Below the pieces are notes generated by a model. It searched no databases. It had not been told where the DNA came from and saw nothing but the letters and a program-made list of their open reading frames with translations. Both the position numbers and the translations under genes were made by a program. Shown piece by piece: positions 6,112-12,896 of a stretch of DNA of 64,000 nucleotides. The DNA is from Gracilinema caldarium DSM 7334 (lineage in GTDB: Bacteria; Spirochaetota; Spirochaetia; Treponematales; Breznakiellaceae), in assembly GCF_000219725.1 (NCBI RefSeq), contig NC_015732.1, forward strand, positions 1,240,001-1,304,000. Direction: 5' to 3'. Every line of letters begins with the position of its first letter. Position 1 is the first letter of the stretch.

Positions 6112-6163
6112 AGGTGTAAAGCCTCTTTATTTACAGAATTAATTGTACGATGATAAAATCAAT

Positions 6164-8884
6164 ATGATTTCAATGTTGTTTACGATAAGGTTTTATTCTC
6201 AATTCCACCGAACACAGCCTGATATGGTGAAATCCATACAGCAGGAAGTGCAGACTCTGGTCCATAGTTCTGGAGGAAAGATTATACGTCTTGGGCGAGA
6301 AACTATTGCAGAATTTTCTGAACAGTCCTTTACGTTTTCTATTCAATTTTTTACGTTTATTCAACAATTAATACCTTTCTGTCAAAAACTTCGAAAACTT
6401 TTACTGGGATATTCGATATATTTTTATACCGAAGATACTTTTGCGAATGATACCTGTGTAAAAAGGCTTGTACATCATAAAGACAGCATCGGAATTTTTT
6501 GCAGCCCTGAGCTTGTTACAATCTTTGCTCCACTCTTTGCAGTAGAATCTCTCCCCGACACAAATATCTTCCAACTTAAAGACTTAAAAAAAATTAAGGA
6601 ATTACCACTTCCGGACATTGACACTCTTATTCCACGATTTCGAACTGAACTTGATAGTTCCGCTGCTCGTTGTAAAATATTGCTTGGTAAAAACAGAGCT
6701 CTTCTCATGCTTTTAAACAACACCTATATAGAGCAACAATATAAAGATGTTCTTCAATTTTATATCAGCTTTAATCCCGCAGGACCATCTTTGAATGGGT
6801 TTATTGAGCTTTTTATACAAAGTATTCAAGAAAGAGATGAATTTTCACAACCATATAAAGAAAAATTGGCATTGCTCAAGGCTGAACGGTTACATGAACA
6901 GTATAATGAGACAATACAATCTCACCTGAAAGAGCTCTTGAATCTTTGGAACAGCATATATGAGACTATACCCCTTGTGCTTCATATTGATTATCTTGAT
7001 GCTCTCCACGATACATTACAGACGATATGTAGGCAATTCCTTGTCGCTTTTTTGCAGTCCCCCATACATCGTGTTCATATTTTTGCTACAGATAGGAAAT
7101 CCTTATCTTGGATTGATGAAATTGACCGTCATTTTGTTTTTATCCAGTCTCCTGAGCGCTCATGGAATGGCTTACTCGACGAAACAGACCAATATCTCAA
7201 TCCCAGGATTATAGTACCCGCTGCCTATCTTTGTCATAAACTATCCTCAATCTATTCAAAATCTGAACTCTCACTGCAACTGGAACGGAGTGGGTTTTCT
7301 AAAAGCAGTATCCAGTGGTTGTTTGAGGTTTTTAATAAAACCGGAATATTTCCAGTTGGAGCAGCGGATTTTATTATTTCTTCAGGAACCGAATCGATGC
7401 TCACAAACTATCTACAAGAGAAAGATTCGCATCTCGTGAACAGTATTGTCCAGGAACGGCTGCGTGAAAGTGTATCGAAACATGAGCTGCTTCCCAGTAT
7501 GGGCTTATTAGTCTGTTACATAGGTGTAGAAGGAAACGCTGACCCCGATTTTATTCTGGATTGTATTATCCATGATTTACAAAATGATTACTTTGTTGAA
7601 TTAGATCGATCTATTCAATCGGAACGGCTTATACAACTCATTGGCAACGAATTGTTTCCGGCACTATATTATATCCTGATCACGGATCATTTAGTAACCA
7701 CTGGTTCACCTCAAGATCTTCTTAATGCGGTACACAATACTGTTCCTTCTACTATTAGCAATAATCGAATAAAGGCCTTCTGCCATATCAATGCTGCTCT
7801 ATTGAATCTTGTTTCGGGGGATCTTGGTGTAGCTTCTGAGAACATAAAAACCGCACTTTTATTATTACAGGATTATAAAAATAAACAGGGCTTGGAAAAA
7901 GTGTTCCGAATTTTTGGATTATTAAAATTAGCGCAACATAATATCGAAGACAGCATTGAATATTTAACCTTTGCTCTGGATTCAGCACAGGAATGTGCAA
8001 ATACCTGTGAACGAGCTTATTCGAGTTATTACATCAGTGTAGCGTATTTCTTACAGGGTAATTTTCCTCGGGCTATCTTCTTTATTAATATGGCAATACA
8101 GCTATTCCATAATCTGGATAATCAACAATGGGAAGAAAAAAGCCTGTTTCTACTTGGCAGACTTCAATTTTCTTTGGGAAATTATGAAAAGGCTTTAGAA
8201 GCGTTTGATCTGATTCATGGTGTAGATATAGCTAGTTTATGGCGTCTGAGAGCAACACTCTATGCATCTATAGGTAATACCATTGCTATGAAACGTATAG
8301 CTGAATCATATGCAACGCTGCATATACAAGACCCCATGTTGGAAATTGAGCTACACTTTTTTCTTGGAAATTATGAAGCATGTTCCCGTCGCTGTGATGC
8401 CATGCTTATGAGTGAACCTGTATCTTTATTGAGAGTGACTGAGCAAGTGGATTGGACCGACGGATATGCGCAAATTGAATCGCTGCTTTTTCCCCGGCGG
8501 GATTTTTTATACCGTCATGCAATCTGCTTTAGAGCATTATCACAAAGTACTCTTTATCCAGAGGATCGTACTATTATTGCCATGCTTGATAAACTCATAA
8601 ATGATCTTAAGCCGATCAATAATTCCGGAATGTACGAATCTGGAGGCTATGAGGCAAGGATCTTTGATCCTTATGATGTTTTTTACTACACCTGTTATTA
8701 CTTGGTGCTGCAACGACTCGATTCTACAGAGATTGACCGGGCAACCGCTTTAAGTAGTGCTTTTAAACGCTTACAAAAACGGGCCAGCCGGATTGAAGAT
8801 GCAGAGATTCGGCGTCACTACTTAACTGCCAACTACTGGAATGGACTACTCAGTAGTGCTGCAAAATTGCATAATTTAATTTAA
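6164..8884 (+). CDS. Large TPR protein with cyclase-like N-terminus
   Basis: The product is about 906 residues with no recognised family name. The first 160 residues follow the layout of a class III nucleotide cyclase domain: LFTIRFYSQFHR, SSGGKIIRLGRETIAEF, then IGIFCSPELVTIF and FQLKDLKKI. The catalytic Asp pair expected in such domains is not evident. Next comes LLGKNRALLMLL, which resembles the entry to a STAND ATPase, but no Walker A motif follows. From about residue 540 onward are TPR-like helical pairs, for example SIEYLTFALDSAQECA and YEKALEAFDLIHG. This is the layout of cyclase-ATPase-TPR signalling proteins with apparently inactive enzyme parts. The ATG at 6164 is chosen by default; TTG at 6143 or ATG at 6173 are possible and none has a Shine-Dalgarno. 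The gene is more AT-rich than its neighbours. Confidence 0.6.
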   Translation: MISMLFTIRFYSQFHRTQPDMVKSIQQEVQTLVHSSGGKIIRLGRETIAEFSEQSFTFSIQFFTFIQQLIPFCQKLRKLLLGYSIYFYTEDTFANDTCVKRLVHHKDSIGIFCSPELVTIFAPLFAVESLPDTNIFQLKDLKKIKELPLPDIDTLIPRFRTELDSSAARCKILLGKNRALLMLLNNTYIEQQYKDVLQFYISFNPAGPSLNGFIELFIQSIQERDEFSQPYKEKLALLKAERLHEQYNETIQSHLKELLNLWNSIYETIPLVLHIDYLDALHDTLQTICRQFLVAFLQSPIHRVHIFATDRKSLSWIDEIDRHFVFIQSPERSWNGLLDETDQYLNPRIIVPAAYLCHKLSSIYSKSELSLQLERSGFSKSSIQWLFEVFNKTGIFPVGAADFIISSGTESMLTNYLQEKDSHLVNSIVQERLRESVSKHELLPSMGLLVCYIGVEGNADPDFILDCIIHDLQNDYFVELDRSIQSERLIQLIGNELFPALYYILITDHLVTTGSPQDLLNAVHNTVPSTISNNRIKAFCHINAALLNLVSGDLGVASENIKTALLLLQDYKNKQGLEKVFRIFGLLKLAQHNIEDSIEYLTFALDSAQECANTCERAYSSYYISVAYFLQGNFPRAIFFINMAIQLFHNLDNQQWEEKSLFLLGRLQFSLGNYEKALEAFDLIHGVDIASLWRLRATLYASIGNTIAMKRIAESYATLHIQDPMLEIELHFFLGNYEACSRRCDAMLMSEPVSLLRVTEQVDWTDGYAQIESLLFPRRDFLYRHAICFRALSQSTLYPEDRTIIAMLDKLINDLKPINNSGMYESGGYEARIFDPYDVFYYTCYYLVLQRLDSTEIDRATALSSAFKRLQKRASRIEDAEIRRHYLTANYWNGLLSSAAKLHNLI

Positions 8885-9024: not shown

Positions 9025-9063
9025 AAAACCTGTCAAGGCTTTGCCTGGCAGGTTTTGTTTTTT
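9025..9063 (+). terminator. Terminator of tRNA-Met, overlapping the nrdG 3' end
   Basis: AAAACCTGTCAAGG (9025-9038) pairs with CCTGGCAGGTTTT (9044-9056) around CTTTG, with one G-U pair and one bulge, then GTTTTTTA. The stem contains the last codons and stop (9033) of the convergent nrdG gene, and five T's on the other strand suggest it works in both directions. Confidence 0.75.
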
Positions 9064-9761
9064 ATACCCCTGAGATAGGCAGTCTTACCATGGCTTAGAG
9101 CTATCTCAGTTAGGTGCACAATCTCTTCAACTGCTGGTTCAGTAAAGGAATTCCAGGTGCTGTCTAGGCATGTCCCTGGTTTAAAAGGGCTGAAATACCA
9201 GGGACTCTTTTCATCAACCAGTTGGGCGATGATTTTGATATCCTGTTCTGTAAGATAACCCTGGGGAAGTACAATAGTTCTATATTCATGGGCTATACCA
9301 CTTTCCTGTATGATGATGCTGCTTTTTTTAATAGACTCTTCGTTCCCCCCAATTTCTGGATAACGATGAGGGGCGAGTTTCAGGTCAAGGGCAATATAAT
9401 CGGGACGGGTTGTCTCCCGGGCAAAAATATATTCCAGAACTTCAGGCCTACTCCCATTGGTATCAAGCTTTACCTTGTAACCTAGCATTTTATAGTACTG
9501 AATCATTTCCGGAAGTTCCCGAGTAAGGGTTGGTTCTCCCCCTGTAATAACAACCCCTTCCAGAACAGAACGACGTTTTTTTAAATGCTCGTTAATAATC
9601 TGTATAGGAAGCAAAGATGCTTCAGCTACTGACGCAGGTAGTACAAGGTTTCCATTATGGCACCAGGGACAGCGGAAGTTGCAATAGGGAAGAAATACAA
9701 CAGCCGCCAGTATCCCTGGGTAATCAATGAGACTTGTTTTCTGGAAACCCGCCAGTACCAT
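9033..9761 (-). CDS. nrdG: Anaerobic ribonucleotide reductase activating enzyme NrdG
   Basis: This 242-residue radical-SAM protein carries the cluster motif CNFRCPWC at residues 27-34 (Cys27, Cys31, Cys34), followed by VVITGGEPTL for SAM binding. It cleaves SAM reductively and abstracts a hydrogen from the radical glycine of the class III reductase. The N-terminus MVLAGFQKTSLIDYPG is typical of the longer NrdG form found with NrdD enzymes of thermophiles and clostridia. It is the last gene of the unit nrdR-nrdD-glycyl-radical ORF-nrdG, 11 bases after the preceding stop. Here its target glycine would be on the separate protein encoded immediately upstream (9773-10318), not on NrdD itself. Confidence 0.92.
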   Translation of the reverse strand: MVLAGFQKTSLIDYPGILAAVVFLPYCNFRCPWCHNGNLVLPASVAEASLLPIQIINEHLKKRRSVLEGVVITGGEPTLTRELPEMIQYYKMLGYKVKLDTNGSRPEVLEYIFARETTRPDYIALDLKLAPHRYPEIGGNEESIKKSSIIIQESGIAHEYRTIVLPQGYLTEQDIKIIAQLVDEKSPWYFSPFKPGTCLDSTWNSFTEPAVEEIVHLTEIALSHGKTAYLRGIKNKTCQAKP

Positions 9762-9772
9762 GCTTAATGAAC

Positions 9773-10318
9773 CTATACAGCCTTATCTAACTGAGAGGAA
9801 CCCTGTTTTGCGAAGGCCAGGATAGACTTAGCATCCCTTGCCCGAGCCAATTCTTTGCCTGATGGGTCGAGAAGAATTGCAGTAGGGGTAGATAGCACAT
9901 TGTGACGGGCCGCAGCGGAAAGTCCTTCTGCAGTGTCCGCATCGACAAAGTCTACAGGAATGCCTAGTTTTTGCGCGGCATCCTTTGCTGGGGGACAGGC
10001 CGGGCATGCGGAGCGGACAAAAAGTAAAAGCTTGCTCTGGTCATGGAAAGGTAAAGTTTGTAAGGGATTTTGGGATATGTTTGTTTCGGAAGTATAGATT
10101 TTAGATGTCCCATGAGCGTATTGATTATCAAGGTCTTCTGCCACTATGCGGAACATCTTTCGCTCTGCATATTCTTGTCGTTTCCCCTTATTCCAATTAC
10201 GAACTGATCGGTAATACCCAACAATGCGGGTGTACACTTCTGTGGTGGTACCTTGCACCTGGTTCAGGGCTTCCCGGGCTTCTGCTAATTCCTTTTCAAT
10301 TTGTTCGAGGGTCCTCAT
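9773..10318 (-). CDS. Detached NrdD glycyl-radical loop fused to a thioredoxin-like domain
   Basis: This 181-residue protein has three parts. Residues 1-23 are a charged helix likely to form a coiled coil. Residues 26-55 match the C-terminal radical loop of class III reductases: the stretch around YTRIVGYYRSV and NWNKGKRQEYAER aligns with the E. coli RVCGYLG loop and its downstream N-x-GK-x-x-E motif, making Gly34 the predicted radical glycine. Residues about 94-165 form a thioredoxin/glutaredoxin-like domain with active site CPAC and a cis-Pro in STPT. The ATG overlaps the nrdD stop (ATGA) and has its own AGGAG, so it looks like a real coupled gene rather than a sequencing error. It likely completes NrdD in trans and supplies its reductant. 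I know of no name for this arrangement. Confidence 0.8.
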   Translation of the reverse strand: MRTLEQIEKELAEAREALNQVQGTTTEVYTRIVGYYRSVRNWNKGKRQEYAERKMFRIVAEDLDNQYAHGTSKIYTSETNISQNPLQTLPFHDQSKLLLFVRSACPACPPAKDAAQKLGIPVDFVDADTAEGLSAAARHNVLSTPTAILLDPSGKELARARDAKSILAFAKQGSSQLDKAV

Positions 10319-12375
10319 TTTGTAACTCCTTGTACTATTGCGTTGCGTTCTGCTTCGAGAGCGCTAATTCGTGCCTGTATTGCTGCTTCCTGTTCAGATT
10401 TGCAAATTGGACAGGTAAAGTGTTCTCCCGCCAGATACCCGTGGACGGGACATACTGAGAAGGTGGGGGAAATGGTGAAGTAGGGGATGCGGTAGTTATG
10501 GGCAATGGCTTTTACTAGATTCCGGCAGCTACGCCAGTCTTCGATGGCTTCACCAAGAAATGCATGGAACACCGTGCCCCCTGTATAAGCAGTTTGAAGG
10601 CTTTCCTGAAGGTCCAGGGCATCGAAGATATCATCGGTCAACATAACCGGCAGCTGGGTTGAGTTTGTGTAGTAGGGTTCATCGGTTCCTGCGGTAATGA
10701 TATCGGGGTATCGTTTTTTATCATGTTTTGCAAGCCGATAAGAAGTGGATTCTGCAGGGGTAGCTTCCAGATTAAAGAGTTCTCCGGTCTCTTCCTGATA
10801 GTCTGCCAATCGGTTCCGCATAACCTGCAGGGTTTTCAGAGCAAAGGCCTGCCCTCGTTCTGTCGCAATAGTACAGTCAGCACCGAAAAAGTTCTGCAGA
10901 CATTCATTCATGCCGACGAGGCCGATGGTATTAAAATGATTATTCAATGTTTTAAGATACCGCTTGGTGTAGGGGAATAACCCCGCGTCAAGCAGTCGAT
11001 TAACAACCTTACGTTTAGTTATAAGGCTTTCCTTGGCCAGGTCCATCAGGCGGCCCAAGCGTCGGTAAAAATCATCTTCATCCTTGGCAAGGTAGCCAAT
11101 CCGGGGTAGGTTGATGGTTACCACCCCTATGGATCCGGTAAGCTCATCGGATCCGAAAAGGCCACCCCCCCGTTTTCGCAGTTCTCGCTTATCCAGCTGT
11201 AAACGGCAGCACATTGAACGGACATCGCTGGGATTCAAATCGGAATTGACAAAGTTTTGAAAATAGGGTGTTCCATATCGGCTGGTCATTTCAAAAAGTA
11301 GTTTTGCGTTGTCACTTTCCCAGTTAAAATCAGCGGTAATATTGTACGTGGGAATAGGGTATTGAAAGCCCCTACCTTCTGCATCGCCTTCTAACATCAA
11401 TTCAATGAATATCCGGTTAACCCGGTCCATCTCTTGTTGGCAGTCGCCGTAGGTAAAGTTCTGTTCTTTGCCGCCCACAATAGCAGGTTTATCCCGCAAG
11501 TCCTGTGGTACGGACCAATCCAGGGTGATGTTGGTAAAAGGCGCCTGACTCCCCCAGCGGCTCGGGGTATTAACACCAAAGATAAAGCTTTGCAGGCATT
11601 GTTTCAGTTCTTTATCAGTCAACTTGTCTGCCTTTACAAAGGGGGCTATATAGGTATCGAAGGAGCTGAAGGCCTGGGCGCCGGCCCATTCATTTTGCAG
11701 GCAGCCTAGAAAATTGACCGCCTGCTGCATCAGGGTACTCAGGTGCCGGGCTGGTTTGGAAGTGATTTTGTCGGGAACGCCGCCCAGGCCTTCCTGGATA
11801 AGCTGTCTCAAGGACCAGCCGGCACAGTAACCGGAAAACATGGATAGGTCATGAATATGAAAATCTGCATTTCGGTGAGCTTCAGCTACTGCTTCAGAAT
11901 AGATATTCTTCAGCCAATAATTGGCGGTAATAGTTCCTGAATTATGCAGGATAAGTCCTCCCAGGGAGTAATTAACATTAGCATTCTCGTTTACCCGCCA
12001 ATCTGACTGATTAAGGTAGCCATCCATGGTGGCGTCAATATCAAGCATGAGCTTTTGGGTGTCCCGGATTGCCTCATGGCGGGACCGGTACAAAATATAG
12101 GCTTTAGCTACCGGGACTTCCTGGGATTCTATGAGTGCGGTTTCTACCAGGTCCTGTATTTCTTCTATAGCTGGAATGGAATTAGGGTGCCGCTGCTGCA
12201 TCATCCGGGTCAATAGTTCTTCCACCCGATTGACAATAGCTTGCACCTTATTGGTTCCATTCTTATCCATTTCTGGAACTCCAACCGCCTTAAAGGCCTT
12301 ACCAACGGCGGCTTCAATTTTGAGCCTGTCATAGGCTTCGATATGACCAGACCGTTTTACCACCTGCTTAATCAT
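10315..12375 (-). CDS. nrdD: Class III ribonucleotide reductase catalytic chain NrdD without its radical loop
   Basis: This 686-residue chain makes deoxyribonucleotides from ribonucleoside triphosphates without oxygen. Residues 1-95 are an ATP-cone (VKRSGHIEAYDRLKIE). The barrel shows FHIHDLSMFSGYCAG, FLGCLQNEWAGAQAF, the active-site cysteine region SMCCRLQLD near residue 388, and NTIGLVGMNECLQNFFG. The chain ends with the zinc site CPVHGYLAGEHFTCPIC near residue 641, then a helical tail and a stop. The radical-glycine segment that normally follows the zinc site is absent and appears on the next ORF. The overlaps with nrdR (ATGA at 12372-12375) and with the following ORF (ATGA at 10315-10318) indicate tight translational coupling. 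The CPxHGYxxGEHxxCPxC ending is of the kind served by redoxins rather than formate. Confidence 0.93.
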   Translation of the reverse strand: MIKQVVKRSGHIEAYDRLKIEAAVGKAFKAVGVPEMDKNGTNKVQAIVNRVEELLTRMMQQRHPNSIPAIEEIQDLVETALIESQEVPVAKAYILYRSRHEAIRDTQKLMLDIDATMDGYLNQSDWRVNENANVNYSLGGLILHNSGTITANYWLKNIYSEAVAEAHRNADFHIHDLSMFSGYCAGWSLRQLIQEGLGGVPDKITSKPARHLSTLMQQAVNFLGCLQNEWAGAQAFSSFDTYIAPFVKADKLTDKELKQCLQSFIFGVNTPSRWGSQAPFTNITLDWSVPQDLRDKPAIVGGKEQNFTYGDCQQEMDRVNRIFIELMLEGDAEGRGFQYPIPTYNITADFNWESDNAKLLFEMTSRYGTPYFQNFVNSDLNPSDVRSMCCRLQLDKRELRKRGGGLFGSDELTGSIGVVTINLPRIGYLAKDEDDFYRRLGRLMDLAKESLITKRKVVNRLLDAGLFPYTKRYLKTLNNHFNTIGLVGMNECLQNFFGADCTIATERGQAFALKTLQVMRNRLADYQEETGELFNLEATPAESTSYRLAKHDKKRYPDIITAGTDEPYYTNSTQLPVMLTDDIFDALDLQESLQTAYTGGTVFHAFLGEAIEDWRSCRNLVKAIAHNYRIPYFTISPTFSVCPVHGYLAGEHFTCPICKSEQEAAIQARISALEAERNAIVQGVTK

Positions 12376-12833
12376 TTATTCCCTCCCAACTTTTGTATTT
12401 CCTGAACAAATTCTTCCAGATCTTTGAAATGGCGGTATACCGAGGCAAAGCGGATATAAGCTACCTTATCGATTGCCCCAAGTTTTTCGAGTACCAGTTC
12501 TCCAATTTCGGTGGTTGGAATTTCATGATTTGCCTTACCGGCAATGACCACCGCATCTTCAATTTCATTAACAATATTTTCTATGGTCATTTGAGAAACG
12601 GGCCGTTTTTCCAGAGCTCGCTGAACTCCCCGTTCGATTTTTGTTCTGTCAAAGGGTTCCCGCCGTCCATCCCGCTTAATAACCATGAATTGCTTATCTT
12701 CAATCCGTTCATAGCTTGTAAAACGATAGCCACATCCATTACATTCTCTGCGGCGCCGGATTGCTTCGCCGTTGGCAAGAGTTCGGGATTCTATTACTTT
12801 GTCATCGAAGTTGCCACAATGGGGGCATCTCAT
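12372..12833 (-). CDS. nrdR: Transcriptional repressor NrdR
   Basis: The product has 153 residues: a zinc ribbon with Cys3, Cys6, Cys31 and Cys34, then an ATP-cone (VIKRDGRREPFDRTKIERGV) that senses ATP/dATP. NrdR represses ribonucleotide reductase genes through 16-bp NrdR boxes. It heads the operon containing nrdD and nrdG, and a good NrdR box lies between its predicted promoter and start codon, so it probably represses itself and the reductase together. AGGAG sits nine bases before the ATG. Length and sequence are normal for the family. Confidence 0.95.
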   Translation of the reverse strand: MRCPHCGNFDDKVIESRTLANGEAIRRRRECNGCGYRFTSYERIEDKQFMVIKRDGRREPFDRTKIERGVQRALEKRPVSQMTIENIVNEIEDAVVIAGKANHEIPTTEIGELVLEKLGAIDKVAYIRFASVYRHFKDLEEFVQEIQKLGGNK

Positions 12834-12880: not shown

Positions 12881-12896
12881 GCGCTATATATAGTGT
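12881..12896. promoter_or_regulatory. NrdR box
   Basis: On the minus strand this reads ACACTATATATAGCGC, matching the 16-bp NrdR consensus ACACwATATmTwGTGT except near its 3' end. It lies 48 bases upstream of the nrdR start. A much weaker second match (10 of 16) is at 12921-12936, overlapping the promoter spacer, 40 bases away rather than the usual 31-32. Confidence 0.55.

Follow-up and report, generated by a model that had tools for sequence, protein, structure and literature searches.

In strict anaerobes, DNA precursors are made by oxygen-sensitive class III ribonucleotide reductases (RNRs), and in all characterised examples that we found described, the glycine that carries the radical is part of the catalytic chain. 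In the window analysed here, a stretch of 64,000 nucleotides from Gracilinema caldarium DSM 7334, the catalytic chain NrdD ends before such a glycine, and the next gene, ORF2, encodes a small protein with a glycyl-radical loop and a thioredoxin-like domain. This raises the question of whether the locus encodes one enzyme built from two chains, a single gene that is read through a frameshift, or the remains of a reductase. We find that NrdD lacks the radical loop and that a separately translated small protein carries the loop together with the thioredoxin-like domain. Very probably, the two chains form a functional class III RNR in which the loop acts in trans and a thioredoxin-type domain sits on the small subunit.

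Both genes belong to an intact operon on the minus strand with the order nrdR, nrdD, ORF2, nrdG. The transcriptional regulator gene nrdR (12372–12833; TIGR00244, E 3.4e-55) shares a 4-nt ATGA overlap with nrdD (10315–12375), which encodes a 686-aa chain with ATP-cone (PF03477, E 2e-18), barrel and zinc site (PF13597, E 8.7e-179; PRK08270, 1091 bits). A second ATGA, at 10315–10318, contains the nrdD stop and the start of the 181-aa ORF2 (9773–10318) and is preceded by an AGGAG. Eleven nucleotides separate ORF2 from nrdG (9033–9761), which has the same direction and encodes a radical-SAM activase of the NrdG2 type (TIGR02495, 158.6 bits at a cut-off of 131). Coordinates, strand, overlap and AGGAG are thus as given in the original prediction. 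An NrdR-box-like palindrome, ACACTATATATAGCGC, lies about 50 bp upstream of nrdR at the head of the operon (12881–12896, minus strand) as an exact match; the pattern is weak alone, since the window, with up to three mismatches allowed, contains three matches compared to 1.6 expected. Through this candidate site, NrdR may control the entire operon from nrdR to nrdG, its own gene included. On the plus strand, a 913-aa ORF (6143–8884) converges on nrdG, and a sequence similar to its C-terminus adjoins nrdD in another locus (L183).

Profile comparisons place the break between the two chains at a domain border. NrdD matches the Pfam NRDD model (PF13597) at positions 1–539 of 562 and then ends, 28 residues past the zinc site, whereas ORF2 matches positions 533–562 (E 2.2e-8) and supplies the missing end. 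The NCBIfam model PRK08270 is divided likewise, with 2–657 of its 684 positions in NrdD and 648–683 in ORF2, which bears out the original reading that the loop lies on ORF2. Further features of a class III RNR are present, namely the PF13597 barrel, the finger-loop cysteine, the first-strand cysteine and the NrdG activase gene. Cys184 of the first strand (11824–11826; motif YCAGW) is nearly invariant in alignment A4. The double-cysteine finger-loop motif MCCR (residues 388–391; 11203–11214) is invariant in the same alignment, and so is Glu491 (10903–10905; motif GMNE), which aligns with GVWE of T. maritima and is the proton source expected in a thioredoxin-dependent NrdD. The zinc site CPVHGYLAGEHFTCPIC (residues 642–658; 10402–10452) aligns with that of T. 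maritima and is followed by a 28-residue helical tail (10318–10401), which we propose as a docking helix. With its second finger-loop cysteine and active-site glutamate, NrdD falls into the thioredoxin-capable NrdD2 subtype as defined previously (PMC4493059, PMC9669993). Enzymes with the MCCR finger loop, the first-strand cysteine and the glutamate appear able to use either formate or thioredoxin (PMC9669993).

ORF2 consists of four parts: a helical start (residues 1–23; 10250–10318), which is the second proposed docking helix, the radical loop (24–56; 10151–10249), a linker (57–92; 10043–10150) and a thioredoxin/glutaredoxin-like domain (93–169; 9812–10042). The loop has the sequence TEVYTRIVGYYRSV-NWNKGK with Gly34 at 10217–10219 and is preceded by a 25-residue helical segment; E-V-Y-x-R-I-V-G-Y-Y-R and N-W-N-x-G-K are invariant in alignment A1. 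The C-terminal domain resembles a protein disulfide oxidoreductase in the PDB (E 1.4e-5), and residues 98–137 give a sub-threshold glutaredoxin match. Its CPAC motif (C105–C108; 9995–10006) had been described together with Gly34, and both are found as described. C105, P106, C108, P145 and T146 are invariant in A1, which corresponds to the CxxC motif and to a Pro-Thr pair where the thioredoxin fold has its cis-proline. Compared pairwise between the window and two genus mates, the helix (dN 0.06–0.13), the loop (0.07–0.13) and the thioredoxin part have a dN well below dS, unlike the unconserved linker (1.4–1.7), whose length varies. The low dN/dS in both NrdD and the small subunit shows that both chains are under purifying selection. 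Elsewhere, two loop ORFs occur at one locus or contig (L133 and G085:C125), which suggests small-subunit duplication.

How the two chains could fit together was modelled with AlphaFold2 for a related locus (L103), whose single in-frame stop between the ORFs was read as a residue, giving a tethered chain. A first prediction from a narrow alignment had a loop pLDDT below 50 and was set aside; the loop improved once the alignment was broadened to include phage NrdDs. The resulting model has a pLDDT of 88 and high-confidence helices at both proposed docking segments. It superposes on solved class III structures, namely on residues 85–735 of P. copri NrdD (8p2s_B) with an rmsd of 2.8 over 553 and on 4u3e_B with an rmsd of 2.8 over 533, and the superposition reaches model residue 761–763, inside the ORF2-encoded loop, where the ranges give the ends only. 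As the prediction is of a tethered chain from an alignment that included single-chain homologues, it shows consistency with a trans loop, not docking or binding in trans.

By inference, the loop acts in trans and the thioredoxin-like domain is the electron donor. In the proposed mechanism, NrdD and the small subunit would dock through their two helices, the C-terminal tail of the former and the N-terminal segment of the latter, and the glycine loop would insert into the NrdD barrel at the site that a cis loop occupies in other NrdDs. NrdG would then generate the glycyl radical on Gly34 within the complex, and the radical would pass from Gly34 to the finger-loop cysteine of MCCR, followed by NTP reduction. 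After turnover, the tethered CPAC domain may reduce the active-site disulfide of NrdD with Glu491 as the proton source, similar to thioredoxin acting on the N. bacilliformis NrdD. This last step is the least certain one.

Its main competitor accepts the trans loop and assigns the thioredoxin-like domain another role, such as radical protection or redox sensing, so that formate or free thioredoxin would reduce NrdD. The methionine of the MCCR finger loop has been linked to formate use (PMC9669993), which leaves formate as a possible reductant, and the thioredoxin domain is missing from L045 and has been lost in L209 and the L075/L077 group. The losses in L075, L077 and L209 mean that the domain is not indispensable everywhere. 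Against this, the CxxC motif is retained in 127 of 135 ORF2 homologues, NrdD has both the glutamate and the double cysteine, and the glutaredoxin fused to the class I radical subunit NrdB of F. ignava is a working reductant (PMC6187632). We therefore regard a domain without a reductant function as rather unlikely, though it deserves to be taken seriously, and favor the tethered CPAC domain as the donor. In L075 and L077 (the Treponema-type g34 group), the loop protein is unlinked from nrdD, lacks the thioredoxin domain and has a short Cys-rich tail (GCDCPP).

Tethering of a redox domain to the radical-bearing part of an RNR has precedents, and the original prediction that a fusion of loop and donor would be new holds only in part. 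Besides F. ignava NrdB, one grx::nrdD fusion was noted in a Lachnospiraceae bacterium in 2018 (PMC6187632). However, these fusions involve a class I metal-radical subunit or NrdD itself and not a separate glycyl-radical subunit. The closest single-chain relatives, the NrdD2 enzymes of T. maritima and N. bacilliformis, share the PF13597 barrel, the double-cysteine finger loop, the glutamate, the zinc site and NrdG with our system. They differ in that the loop resides on a second gene here and that their finger loop reads SCCR instead of MCCR. Class II RNRs can also be split (PMC9669993), and NrdJa/NrdJb is likewise an RNR in two chains with C-terminal domains on the small one; it has no glycyl radical, and its small chain carries zinc-finger/IscU-like domains. 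Interrupted nrdD coding sequences are known from phages, where introns, inteins or homing endonucleases break the gene (PMC3653736). In contrast to such mobile-element insertions, the break described here falls at one domain border throughout the phylum, with added helices and no element in between. Our search of the openly licensed literature for a split NrdD retrieved just these phage intron, intein or homing-endonuclease breaks, one phage nrdD with an unexplained three-way break, and split class II enzymes. A class III RNR with a separate glycyl-radical subunit, with or without a thioredoxin domain, was not described in the openly licensed literature that we covered, where a subscription report could be missed. 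Thus, the trans arrangement of the glycyl-radical loop appears to be new.

A glycyl-radical domain on a separate small protein is also the hallmark of GrcA/YfiD and T4 Y06I, small free proteins that give such a domain to the barrel enzyme pyruvate formate-lyase. Spare parts validated so far are those of pyruvate formate-lyase alone (YfiD and T4 Y06I) according to PMC8683613, whose authors propose that others may exist for further glycyl-radical enzymes. By analogy, the ORF2 product could serve as a spare part for mending NrdD after cleavage by oxygen, and not as a permanent subunit, and some distant relatives do have extra solitary loop-only ORFs. But GrcA replaces the damaged cis domain of a complete enzyme, whereas the NrdD partner here never has a loop of its own that could be damaged, and the loop of the small protein is of the NrdD type and fused to a thioredoxin domain. 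With one barrel and one loop per genome and no full-length NrdD in the genome of the window, a role in repair is very improbable, and a permanent small subunit is the reading we retain. The solitary ORFs (L339, L340 (G222), L343, L344 (G244)), with frames of 54–67 aa, lie away from nrdD in genomes where NrdD already has an adjoining loop ORF; they are possible true spare parts for NrdD.

Is the split enzyme active? The complete genome of the window (a single contig of 3,239,340 bp) has no matches to the NRDD model other than the two halves, so that a second, full-length nrdD, which would have undermined the original prediction, is absent. The same genome encodes a class II RNR at 2198706–2200853 of its contig, and the split enzyme therefore need not be the sole supplier there. 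RNRs are needed for de novo dNTP synthesis. The wider survey included some incomplete MAGs; in 12 related genomes with a completeness of at least 95%, each with one split NrdD and one loop, a search with PF02867 found no class I or II RNR. PF02867 served as the test model for these classes, since PF00317 is uninformative and misses even the class II enzyme of G. caldarium. Where split NrdD is the sole RNR found, gene content suggests that it should be active. A decaying remnant in G. caldarium, its function taken over by the class II enzyme, would account for the presence of that enzyme, but it fits poorly with the low dN/dS in both chains, the intact operon and the split form as the sole RNR found in related genomes, and we give it hardly any credence compared to an active two-chain enzyme.

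The comparison across relatives also bears on whether the two ORFs are really two genes. A scan of a genome collection covered the best 80 of 569 relatives, and these 80 are all spirochaetes; ORF2 is present in 39 of the 58 relatives searched and is kept across Spirochaetota. The original prediction suggested looking for the same break in NrdDs of Treponema and other spirochaetes, and it indeed recurs throughout the phylum. The NrdD tail after the last zinc cysteine measures 25–36 residues (median 27; 68 loci), and the ORF2 proteins usually have exactly 25 residues in front of TEVYxR (70 loci). In single-chain NrdDs, the zinc site is followed by TEVYSR within about five residues, so the split forms contain two extra helices, one at the end of NrdD and one at the start of the ORF2 product. 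Among 125 linked loci, in which some genomes are counted twice, the spacing between the nrdD stop codon and the start of ORF2 ranges from −14 to +384 nt with a median of 63, the frame relations are spread over all three frames (49/41/35), and 122 match at least four of the six Shine-Dalgarno positions upstream of ORF2. Moreover, in four complete Treponema-type genomes, nrdD and the loop gene occupy distant sites on the same contig, and about 168 kb lie between them in T. vincentii OMZ 806. The −4 overlap, common to the window and its genus mates, is ordinary translational coupling. A programmed −1 frameshift at A-AAA could join the frames across the 4-nt overlap of the window and its genus, or a sequencing error at 10315–10340 could have split one gene, yet neither the overlap nor the frame relation is conserved, and variable gaps, three frames, own Shine-Dalgarno sequences and unlinked genes argue for two genes, so that comparison of these loci leaves the frameshift already refuted as a general mechanism and a single gene here very improbable. 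The relatives thus support two coupled genes, the second of which carries the loop fused to a thioredoxin domain. In a T. vincentii OMZ 806 locus (L180; G477:C1:1689617-1691222), the NrdD barrel itself lies in two overlapping pieces, possibly through a real or a sequencing frameshift.

To place the split in the evolution of NrdD, we used a quick maximum-likelihood tree of 145 barrels, drawn with a midpoint root and without L091 and L059, which the duplicate filter left out. All split forms with a thioredoxin domain fall into one group of 66 rows (SH-aLRT 95), whose members span many Spirochaetota families. Its sister is L204, a single-chain NrdD-Gly-Trx protein, and other such fusions are found nearby. 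In the simplest reading of this tree, a single-chain NrdD-Gly-Trx ancestor apparently split a single time, and the parts were re-fused occasionally later. Two apparent re-fusions lie inside the split group (L056 and L100) and keep an insert where the helices were. A third case, L045, has a barrel 82% identical to NrdD of the window and a near-identical loop in cis, without helices. This near-identity is good evidence for treating the trans loop as the counterpart of a cis loop. L045 comes from another family (f4) and its barrel nests beside the genus of the window, suggesting transfer followed by re-fusion.

Separate splits, beyond what had been predicted, are seen in other spirochaetes and in phages. 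In families f24, f35, f45, f51 and f52, NrdD ends in a CPYPHTE-like sequence and is accompanied by a loop-only ORF, and several phage NrdD groups have loop-only ORFs of their own. Such NrdD-type ORFs, about 50–100 aa long and with the loop only, occur on phage contigs of several separate lineages (L294, L296, L297, L305, L312, L313, L321, L323, L325, L326 and L218–L224), and in the first ten NrdD on the same contig lacks a loop. Other phage NrdDs (L257, L259, L261, L262, L264, L268) have a C-terminal glutaredoxin/thioredoxin-like domain in one chain, and two NrdD frames of about 1020 aa (L220, 910–3981; L230, 1064–4123) are about 300 longer than usual, possibly owing to an inserted element such as an intein. 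A phage search gave one match to the glycyl-thioredoxin subunit (33% identity, MT835493) and two short NrdD matches; a plasmid search returned nothing informative and PADLOC gave no result.

A two-chain form across much of Spirochaetota changes how nrdD genes ought to be annotated, as many of them seem truncated and would pass for broken genes. The finding also bears on an explicit question in the field, namely whether separate glycyl domains exist for enzymes beyond pyruvate formate-lyase (PMC8683613). The radical part of an essential enzyme becomes a separate component here, and this domain can be supplied, withheld or altered by mutation while the barrel stays intact. Moreover, the locus shows a radical carrier that nature has fused to its presumed reductant. 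More speculatively, and as a possibility that we consider somewhat less likely than not, class III RNR might have become a modular enzyme in a large part of Spirochaetota and, independently, in further spirochaetes and in phages. The oxygen-fragile radical domain would then be a small exchangeable subunit that can be produced, activated and replaced once oxygen has damaged it, and in the main lineage this subunit would bring its own electron donor, so that radical and reductant supply form one part.
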